Of a DNA stretch of 35,003 bases, positions 4,509-27,985 are shown piece by piece. The stretch comes from Candidatus Harrisonbacteria bacterium (GTDB lineage Bacteria; Patescibacteriota; Minisyncoccia; UBA6257; 1-14-0-10-40-38): assembly GCA_023245035.1 (NCBI GenBank), contig JAHFLD010000003.1, positions 119,736 to 154,738 of the forward strand, in the 5' to 3' direction. The notes beneath the pieces were generated by a model. That model saw only the letters and a list, made by a program, of their open reading frames with translations. It was not told the DNA's origin and made no database searches. Numbering within the stretch: the stretch's first letter is position 1; each line of letters starts with the position of its first letter. The position numbers were made by a program, and so were the translations under genes.

Positions 4509-5408
4509 TTAGAGAAAAATGGTCGGTTGTTCGCCGGTTGTTGTCTCTGGTGTCTTTATCTCCTGAATTTCTTTTTTGCTTTCCAGGAGTTTGGCAATGA
4601 TGCCTTTTAACTCTTCCGGCGAATAAAAGTCAATCACGATTTTTCCGGTGCCGCCGGATTTTTCTAAATTTACTCTGGCGCCTAAAAATTCTTCCAGTGA
4701 TTTGGTGAGGCTGGCCAGTTCCGGATCCGGAACTGTCGGGAAGAGGTGATTCTCTTTTTTTAGTGCTTCCGCTTTTTTCTTTTCTATTTTGATTTTGAGT
4801 TCGCGGACGCTCAAATTATTTTTAATGATGTCTTCAAAAAGCATCTCTTGTTCGGCGATTTCCGGAATGGCGAGCAAGAGGCGCGCCTGACTTTCGCTTA
4901 ATTGCCCAACGGCGACGGCGTCTTGGATGTTAGTTGGCAAGTTCAAGAGGCGAACGGTGTTGGCTATGGTTTCCCGGCTCTTGCCGATTCGGCTGGCGAT
5001 CTCGCGCTGGGTCAAGTTGAATTGGTCCTGGAGTTTGGCGTAGGCGCGCGCCGATTCGATGGGGTTGAGGTTGGCTCGCTGGACGTTTTCAATAACGGCC
5101 AGCTCCAGACGCTCACGATCCAGTTTAATGCTTCGGATGATGGCCGGGACGCGTTCTAGCCCTAATAGTTTTGAGGCCAGCCAGCGGCGTTCACCGGCAA
5201 TGAGTTCATACTGAATGGTGGTGCCATGCTCGGCTAGTTCTTCGATTTTGGTAACAACCAACGGTTGGAGGATGCCGAATTCGCGGATAGAGCTGGCAAG
5301 TTCGCGCAAGCTTTCTTCGTCAAAAAATTTTCGCGGTTGGTGCGGGTTCGGGCGGATTTTTTCAACCTCAATCAAAAACACCGGGCCTTGAGTTTGTAGT
5401 TCTTCCAT
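4509..5408 (-). CDS. parB: ParB/Spo0J-family chromosome partitioning protein
   Basis: IRPNPHQPRKFFDEESLRELASSI, GERRWLASK, ENVQRANLNPIESARAY, HTH LTQREIASRIGKSRETIANTVRLLNLP. Confidence 0.93.
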   Translation of the reverse strand: MEELQTQGPVFLIEVEKIRPNPHQPRKFFDEESLRELASSIREFGILQPLVVTKIEELAEHGTTIQYELIAGERRWLASKLLGLERVPAIIRSIKLDRERLELAVIENVQRANLNPIESARAYAKLQDQFNLTQREIASRIGKSRETIANTVRLLNLPTNIQDAVAVGQLSESQARLLLAIPEIAEQEMLFEDIIKNNLSVRELKIKIEKKKAEALKKENHLFPTVPDPELASLTKSLEEFLGARVNLEKSGGTGKIVIDFYSPEELKGIIAKLLESKKEIQEIKTPETTTGEQPTIFL

Positions 5409-5666: not shown

Positions 5667-5738
5667 GCGCCCTTAGCTCAGTGGTAGAGCGTTTCATTGA
5701 CATTGAAAAGGTCGGAGGTTCGATCCCTCCAGGGCGCA
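5667..5738 (+). tRNA. tRNA-Val(GAC)
   Basis: GCGCCCT...AGGGCGC-A acceptor; anticodon stem TTTCA-TTGACAT-TGAAA; T-arm GGAGGTTCGATCCCTCC; full CCA not encoded (CCT). Confidence 0.93.
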
Positions 5739-5749
5739 CCTAGATTATA

Positions 5750-5770
5750 AAATACCTTTAAGGTATTTTT
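5750..5770 (+). terminator. Rho-independent terminator after tRNA-Leu/tRNA-Val
   Basis: AAATACCT-TTA-AGGTATTT followed by TT. Confidence 0.6.
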
Positions 5771-5779
5771 AGTCTTATA

Positions 5780-5866
5780 CTGGAGGGATCGAACAGTGGA
5801 GGGGGTCGAGGACCGCGTTTGGTCTCCCGTGTTGGAGATTATCCAGAACCATCGGTTCTGAAAAGA
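5780..5866 (+). other. tRNA-associated structured element, copy A
   Basis: CTGGAGGGATCGAAC (5780-5794) is the exact reverse complement of tRNA-Val 5718-5732; then AGTGGAGGGGGTCG, imperfect hairpin GGACC..GGTCTCC and perfect hairpin CAGAACC-ATC-GGTTCTG; aligns with copy B. Confidence 0.65.
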
Positions 5867-5967
5867 GAATTGCCACGTTTCGCTTCGGTTGGCGACTAAT
5901 TGGTATTTAATTTTTGGACTAAAAACGAATTGGCGATTTGGTATTTTTTGGGAAGTTTTTTAATCGT

Positions 5968-6840: not shown

Positions 6841-7410
6841 ATGAAATTTTCTTTTTGGAATTTTGTTGCCGGTTTTTATGATCGCCTTTTTTCGCCGATG
6901 CTTAATAGCGATATTCCGGCGATTTGTGAATTAGCCAGTTTTGAAAAGGCAGATTTAGTTTTGGACTATGGCGGAGGAACCGGGCGGGTGGCGCTCGCGA
7001 TTCGCGGTAAAGTTGCTCGGGTAATAGTTTTAGATGCCGCTTCGAAGATGATCGCGGAAGCTTGTTTAAAGGAGTTGGAGGGAGAGGTGGTTTCTGGTCT
7101 GCCGACTCATTTTGAAGCGGCTTCCTGCGACAAGATTATAGTGATTGAGTCCTTTCATCACTTGCCCAACCAGGATGATCACCTAAAAGAGTTTTGGCGC
7201 CTTTTGAAGCCCGATGGCGTTTTGTTGATTGAAGAGCCAAATCTTGATTCGGCGATTAAATATTTTCTTTGGCTGGAGCATGGGTTTAGGCATTTTCCAT
7301 ATTGGACGGCTGATACTTGGCGGGCGAAACTTTTGACCGCTGGTTTTTTGGTGCAGACCGAAAAAATCGCCGGCTCACGATATTTTGTGAAGGCCAAGAA
7401 AATTGGTTGA
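6841..7410 (+). CDS. Class I SAM-dependent methyltransferase
   Basis: LVLDYGGGTGRVALAI SAM-binding motif I, later IIVIESFHHLPN and LLKPDGVLLIEEP. Confidence 0.85.
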   Translation: MKFSFWNFVAGFYDRLFSPMLNSDIPAICELASFEKADLVLDYGGGTGRVALAIRGKVARVIVLDAASKMIAEACLKELEGEVVSGLPTHFEAASCDKIIVIESFHHLPNQDDHLKEFWRLLKPDGVLLIEEPNLDSAIKYFLWLEHGFRHFPYWTADTWRAKLLTAGFLVQTEKIAGSRYFVKAKKIG

Positions 7411-27087: not shown

Positions 27088-27121
27088 CCCGATGGACTTT
27101 GGTGGGCTAACACTGTTTATG

Positions 27122-27193
27122 TGGACCAAGGGAGGATTGAACTCCCGACCTCCTCATTGCAAATGAGGCGCTCTACCACTGAGCTATTGGCCC
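27122..27193 (-). tRNA. tRNA-Ala(TGC)
   Basis: GGGCCAA-TA-GCTCAGTGGTAGAGC, anticodon stem CCTCA-TTTGCAA-TGAGG, T-arm GGGAGTTCAATCCTCCC, TTGGTCC-A; G3:U70; CCA not fully encoded. Confidence 0.94.
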
Positions 27194-27798: not shown

Positions 27799-27896
27799 TC
27801 ACGCGCTTTGCTTTTAGAAACCGACGGTTTCTAATCTCTTCCTGAACGGGAAACCGCAGGCGGTTTCCCGACCCCTTCCACTGTTCGATTCCTCGC
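27789..27896 (-). other. tRNA-associated structured element, copy B
   Basis: Minus strand GCGAGGAATCGAACAGTGGAAGGGGTC-GGGAAACCGCCTGCGGTTTCCC-...-TTAGAAACC-GTC-GGTTTCTAA-...-GATTCCTCGC; ends are a 10-bp inverted repeat; first 14 nt are the exact reverse complement of the tRNA-Arg T-arm. Confidence 0.7.
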
Positions 27897-27913
27897 AAGA
27901 AATTTACTATTTG

Positions 27914-27985
27914 TGCCCCCGCGAGGAATCGAACCTCGATTTTTTCCTTAGGACGGAATTGCTCTATCCATTGAGCTACAGGGGC
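27914..27985 (-). tRNA. tRNA-Arg(CCT)
   Basis: GCCCCTG-TA-GCTCAATGGATAGAGC, anticodon loop GTCCTAA, T-arm CGAGGTTCGATTCCTCG, CGGGGGC-A; CCA not encoded. Confidence 0.93.

Follow-up and report, generated by a model that had tools for sequence, protein, structure and literature searches.

Short non-coding elements with a tRNA-specific antisense arm behind tRNA genes of Patescibacteria

Two tRNA-linked elements in the window

The window analyzed here, a 35,003-nt stretch of a Candidatus Harrisonbacteria contig (JAHFLD010000003.1, positions 119,736 to 154,738), contains two copies, A and B, of a short structured element situated behind a tRNA gene. Copy A lies on the plus strand and follows tRNA-Val(GAC), which both ARAGORN and Rfam call within 5667-5740 (gene, 5667 to 5738; ARAGORN end, 5740). 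An A/T-rich segment (5741 to 5779) with a terminator-like hairpin (stem, 5751 to 5771) separates the tRNA 3' end from an antisense arm (CTGGAGGGATCGAAC, 5780 to 5794), the exact 15-nt reverse complement of positions 5718 to 5732. This target segment consists of the T-loop, the 3' strand of the T-stem and two acceptor bases, corresponding to tRNA positions G53 to 67. Behind the arm come a core motif (AGTGGAGGGGGTCG, 5795 to 5808), hairpin 1 (5807 to 5829), a linker (TGTTGGAGATTATC, 5830 to 5843) and hairpin 2 (CAGAACC-ATC-GGTTCTG, 5844 to 5860). Core motif and linker are conserved in the family alignment described below, and both hairpins covary across the family, hairpin 1 being imperfect in copy A and hairpin 2 a perfect 7-bp stem. 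Copy A scored 84.2 bits against a covariance model of the family (match, 5782 to 5867), for which it was one of 11 training sequences.

A preliminary description of this DNA, made from the letters of the window, had reported the antisense copy, the core motif and the two hairpins; sequence comparison and a window scan confirmed the first, and the others were all located where it had placed them. The separating terminator-like hairpin that it described is likewise present, although a terminator scan did not score it.

The same description had pointed to an equivalent arrangement at tRNA-Arg, and this is copy B, located on the minus strand. Here, tRNA-Arg(CCT) (27913 to 27985; ARAGORN) is followed by a 14-nt arm (27883 to 27896) antisense to tRNA positions 27921 to 27934 and by a covariance-model match of 89.9 bits (27809 to 27895), also a training sequence. 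Copy B has the same parts as copy A plus a terminal second tRNA-Arg 3' end (GATTCCTCGCGGGGACAC, 27798-27781), a direct repeat that had been overlooked. Copy A has no second tRNA-Val 3' end, nor does another occur anywhere in the window. An inverted repeat of 15 nt with the geometry of copy A was found at only 2 of 4,972 window positions (scan step, 7 bases), and an arm match was present behind only two of the seven window tRNAs (Val, 15 nt; Arg, 14 nt; remaining five, 5 to 7 nt). A partial tRNA-Ala 3' end (GTTCAATTCTGGCTAGGTCC, 27070-27050, minus strand) occurs about 50 nt behind tRNA-Ala(TGC) (27121-27193), without the element core.

Family, conserved structure and mobility

BLAST added copies behind tRNA-Ser and tRNA-Met of the same genome; in distant relatives, it located others behind the tRNAs for Lys, Gly, Arg, Pro and Trp. 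The covariance model, built from 11 copies, matched 12 sites in the window's own 0.72-Mb genome (one weakly, E = 0.06) and sites in 83 of 200 genomes of the order, with a maximum of 15 per genome; some of the counted copies are training sequences, and E-values are rough. The genomes are mostly draft metagenome-assembled genomes. In the window's genome, 11 of the 12 copies lie behind different tRNAs, and the other lies at the 3' end of rplK (L054). The expectation that relatives would carry copies downstream of tRNAs thus held for the most part: 85 of 105 copies are located no more than 150 bp 3' of a tRNA, and almost every isotype is represented. However, targets also include tmRNA, rplK (L054, L064) and lepA (L086), and each of these elements has an antisense copy and a direct repeat of its own target.

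Exact-pattern matches were found in Parcubacteria lineages such as Yonath-, Jorgensen-, Lipton-, Taylor-, Nomura-, Kaiser-, Staskawicz- and Portnoybacteria, as well as in Kazan, WS2, Berkelbacteria and one contig labeled Acidobacteria. This Angelobacter contig (L152, 2018-3736 and 5112-5142) combines an element pattern match with a serine recombinase and represents either a transfer or a misbinned Patescibacteria contig. As the preliminary description had suspected, the element fits no RNA family that can be named: against the 4,227 families of Rfam only the tRNA exceeded the gathering cutoff, and permissive cutoffs yielded just low-scoring chance matches. Carriage by phages was rejected, as one strict pattern had no match among 2.9 million viral contigs. 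Horizontally spreading, tRNA-specific lineages are unsupported as well, because core similarity is independent of tRNA isotype. No description of such elements was found in open-licence papers. The elements apparently constitute an undescribed family of short non-coding elements that is widespread in the ultra-small Patescibacteria.

Family members are roughly 110 to 250 bp long and share one order of parts: the tRNA, a terminator-like hairpin, an antisense arm of 11 to 18 nt against the T-loop and T-stem of the adjacent tRNA, the GGGGTCG core, hairpin 1, a GTGnnGGA linker, hairpin 2, a variable hairpin, GTGAGATT or GTTCGATT, and the direct repeat. The latter, a right-hand repeat of the tRNA 3' end of about 14 to 18 bp, is present in nearly all copies and usually stops at the discriminator plus C74, while the right end is partly element encoded. 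Right-hand flanks often contain a further terminator-like hairpin (37%, compared to 3% in the control); therefore, the left hairpin is part of the insert. For copy A, segment 5741 to 5779 was assigned to the insert because the same segment belongs to the insert at empty and filled sites. Both core hairpins are real: in an alignment fitted to the model, which favors pairing, 94.3% of cells were paired and 333 cells were double changed; none of 500 shuffles reached this level, and sliding controls remained far below it. Strong structural constraint acts on these hairpins. In most copies, the direct repeats enclose no gene. Tandem copies exist (L136, L149, L120), and a few loci carry cargo between element parts, namely, GIY-YIG open reading frames (L149, L016) and, in a single case, a serine recombinase fragment (L148).

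Four genomes of one genus (G164, G008, G137, G170) allowed empty and filled sites to be compared, insertion ages being approximate since each species is represented by one genome. At tRNA-Arg(tct), G164 has an element, but the site is empty in G137 and also in G008, where identity of the flanks reaches 97%. At tRNA-Arg(cct), the element is intact in G164, internally deleted in G008 and absent from G137 and G170. In this comparison, the insertion lies exactly at the tRNA 3' end. The preliminary description had proposed that the element either has its own promoter or is mobile at the DNA level. Copy A showed no evidence of a promoter, and the empty and filled sites together with the direct repeats favor the second alternative: because elements are gained and lost exactly at the tRNA 3' end within one genus, they are mobile DNA.

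Match between the antisense arm and its tRNA

The arm is specific to the adjacent tRNA. Its mean matching run is 11.1 nt with its own tRNA and 6.2 nt with others, and at variable positions it agrees with its own tRNA at 555 of 696 sites, compared to 337 ± 11 in permutations (z = 20). The match is near perfect between G53 and position 62 and has faded by position 68. However, an invariable match, as raised in the preliminary description, does not hold, since the arm is degenerate in roughly one-quarter of copies. Element-free tRNAs have no such arm, except for some that precede a different core. Where the tRNA and the right-hand repeat disagree (99 informative positions), the arm follows the tRNA at 91 and the repeat at 8; a P1 pairing, in which arm and right-hand repeat form a maintained helix, was therefore excluded.

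The Met, Arg and Pro copies of the window's genome have terminator and core in common and differ only in the intervening arm, which has been replaced between homologous flanks. Each of the three arms fits its own tRNA with no more than one mismatch over the T-arm part, and the terminator stems of these copies show compensatory changes. Conversely, the arm at tRNA-Arg(tct) in G164 misfits its tRNA, and arm and terminator resemble those of the element at the neighboring tRNA-Arg(cct). A search for a donor tRNA for the mismatched arm found none. We read this mismatch as carry-over from a donor copy, with re-matching having followed in other copies.

Origin of the elements and relation to known systems

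Our favored explanation, to which we assign a probability of roughly 0.6, is that copies A and B are short non-autonomous mobile DNA elements of Patescibacteria that insert at tRNA 3' ends and whose arm is carried over and then re-matched. Insertion would take place at the 3' end of a tRNA gene, or occasionally at T-loop-like sequences elsewhere, and would duplicate about 14 to 18 bp, from tRNA position 58-61 or so to C74; the tRNA would stay intact because its 3' end is duplicated. The insert would supply its own terminator hairpin, the antisense arm, the two-hairpin core and the end GTGAGATT. We infer a function for the structure in that the core hairpins are probably the substrate of a putative enzyme supplied in trans. 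The arm would arrive from the donor copy and later be re-matched to the new tRNA, our guess for the most likely route being template switching on the quasi-palindrome formed by arm and T-arm; as the tRNA is under selection, only the arm could change. Template switching during replication creates and mends hairpin arms and stems (PMC8794818).

Several results weigh against this explanation. None of the recombinase, transposase or reverse transcriptase families tested is needed across element-bearing genomes. Y1/RAYT (PF01797) is absent from the window's genome, G019 and G072 and does not correlate with copy number (P = 0.87). Large serine recombinases occur near several elements but are absent from G019, G021, G160, G172 and G194, which excludes them as general enzymes in cis. 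Tyrosine recombinases (phage-integrase domain) are usually present once per genome with or without elements and are missing from element-bearing G195 and G070, and reverse transcriptase (RVT_1) is missing from G072, G105, G160, G194 and G195. GIY-YIG endonucleases are near universal and correlate weakly (rho, 0.25), but G145 has eight elements and none of these genes. Furthermore, inspection of the copies revealed no target-independent terminal inverted repeats, no formal search having been made, and the arm match was uncorrelated with stability of the intervening hairpin, repeat identity or model score, a weak test that lends template switching no support. As no tested protein family explains the distribution, we infer that the elements are non-autonomous and depend on an enzyme provided in trans. 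No autonomous relative that would share the element ends was identified.

Genes for large serine recombinases meet tRNA 3' ends head-on, with C termini that read through the tRNA in antisense (L148, 1627-3054, minus strand; L178, 2535-4175; L179, 4359-6056; L202, 4297-5903), and in L148 an element follows the gene. Small GIY-YIG open reading frames often adjoin tRNAs (L149, 96-485, minus strand; L016, 1177-1413, plus strand; L031, L071, L110, L180), and those of L149 and L016 lie between element parts. These genes, found mostly in tRNA clusters, may belong to separate tRNA-targeting elements.

The elements could instead be attachment sites that fold from a single strand, as do integron attC and the attP of CTX phage, with arm and T-arm copy rebuilding a double-stranded T-arm site. 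An enzyme of the Xer or integrase type would recombine this site with the T-loops of tRNAs, and cassettes could then stack up. This would account for the match between arm and tRNA, the element ends GTTCRA and TYGAAC echo the attC core sites GTTRRRY/RYYYAAC, and tandem copies exist, a few of them with cargo in between; however, a cassette moved to another tRNA would yield a chimeric tRNA, and no recombinase family is common to all element-rich genomes, so that we consider this explanation doubtful. Integron attC sites do resemble the elements in being imperfect palindromes with GTT/AAC core boxes that stack in tandem. In contrast, the present elements sit at tRNA genes and have a conserved multi-hairpin core and an arm complementary to a host gene; their boxes vary with the target, and the core is two separate hairpins rather than one imperfect palindrome. 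RNA-guided homing, also unlikely, would make arm and core a programmable guide RNA, rewritten for each target, with a guide of 11 to 16 nt and a two-hairpin scaffold; it would steer to tRNA genes a putative Patescibacteria integrase or nuclease that is produced elsewhere. In keeping with such a system, a guide-like arm lies beside a conserved, covarying scaffold, is particular to the tRNA it flanks and has been exchanged among copies that are homologous in their other parts. Nevertheless, copy A gave no promoter evidence, no candidate effector and no Rfam likeness to known guide scaffolds were found, many arms are poor, and at tRNA-Arg(tct), where one genome has the element and two relatives have an empty site, the arm misfits its tRNA.

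The terminator-like hairpin and the strong RNA-type covariation would also suit a domesticated RNA that acts in cis, insulating or controlling the transcription or maturation of the tRNA. Absence from most tRNAs and many genomes, turnover within a genus and decay of orthologous copies make this improbable. Least credible is a tRNA-primed retroelement with the arm as primer-binding site: although the arm is antisense to the tRNA 3' region and the tRNA 3' end is copied, the arm stops short of the 3' terminus, its match fading after position 68, and genomes with 9 to 15 elements lack RVT_1.

Like MITE-like and REP/BIME elements, the family is short, non-coding, structured and multicopy and has no gene of its own, and target duplication and presence/absence polymorphism are further traits of the MITE-like class found here. 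It differs from both in insertion at tRNA 3' ends, the tRNA-end repeat and the target-matched arm, and from REP/BIME also in that Y1 (RAYT) transposases are lacking in the window's and other copy-rich genomes. HEARO/omega RNAs and the bridge RNAs of insertion sequences likewise place a guide-like segment beside a structured scaffold at the end of a mobile element; the elements described here, known from DNA, matched no Rfam family and yielded no candidate effector. Islands integrated at tRNA genes by tyrosine or large serine integrases also preserve the gene through a direct repeat of its 3' end; in contrast, most copies here have no integrase in cis, measure about 100 to 250 bp, occur at all tRNA types and have an arm that changes with the target. 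Some casposons target tRNA 3' ends too, the duplication generated by the casposase of A. boonei being 14 bp long (PMC6614799). The present elements resemble them in duplicating a similar length at tRNA 3' ends, about 14 to 18 bp with a right end that is partly element encoded. In contrast, the antisense arm is not a casposon feature, inspection of the copies, with no formal search, revealed no terminal inverted repeats, and no casposase was found, although no search aimed at Cas1 was made. We did not place the elements in MITE-like, island or casposon families because no defining enzyme or full end structure of these was found.

The family would be a phylum-scale one in streamlined genomes of about 0.7 Mb, in which nearly every tRNA gene is a landing site and the tRNA is preserved. 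Replacement of a short antisense segment at each site between conserved flanks raises the question of guide-like targeting or hairpin replication errors, and the elements offer many natural cases for measuring template switching. They may also mislead annotation of tRNA ends and genes in these genomes.

A second core type (CCGGAG...GAGGCGGGGTCG...GTGACCGATTCC), probably a sister family, occurs behind tRNAs and is accompanied by the terminator, antisense arm and 3'-end repeat seen with the first type (L120, reverse complement, ~6970-7120; L194, 790-920; L231, 5400-5510; L168, reverse complement, ~4590-4700); the two types are stacked in L120. One element copy lies upstream of tRNA-Arg(TCT), where its right end abuts the 5' end of the tRNA rather than a 3' end (L179, reverse complement, 1540-1660). 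Five others (L018, L020, L046, L088, L148) have no adjacent intact tRNA and share a left flank resembling CGTTCGGACTAATTC, which is T-loop-like. A degenerate element behind a tRNA continues into an open frame that is sortase-like by eye (L013, 1490-700, minus strand). Finally, in L010 (1700-1830, minus strand), split half copies with their break in the anticodon loop flank tRNA-Lys, and inverted repeats surround a full tRNA copy; an element of another kind seems to have inserted into the anticodon loop.
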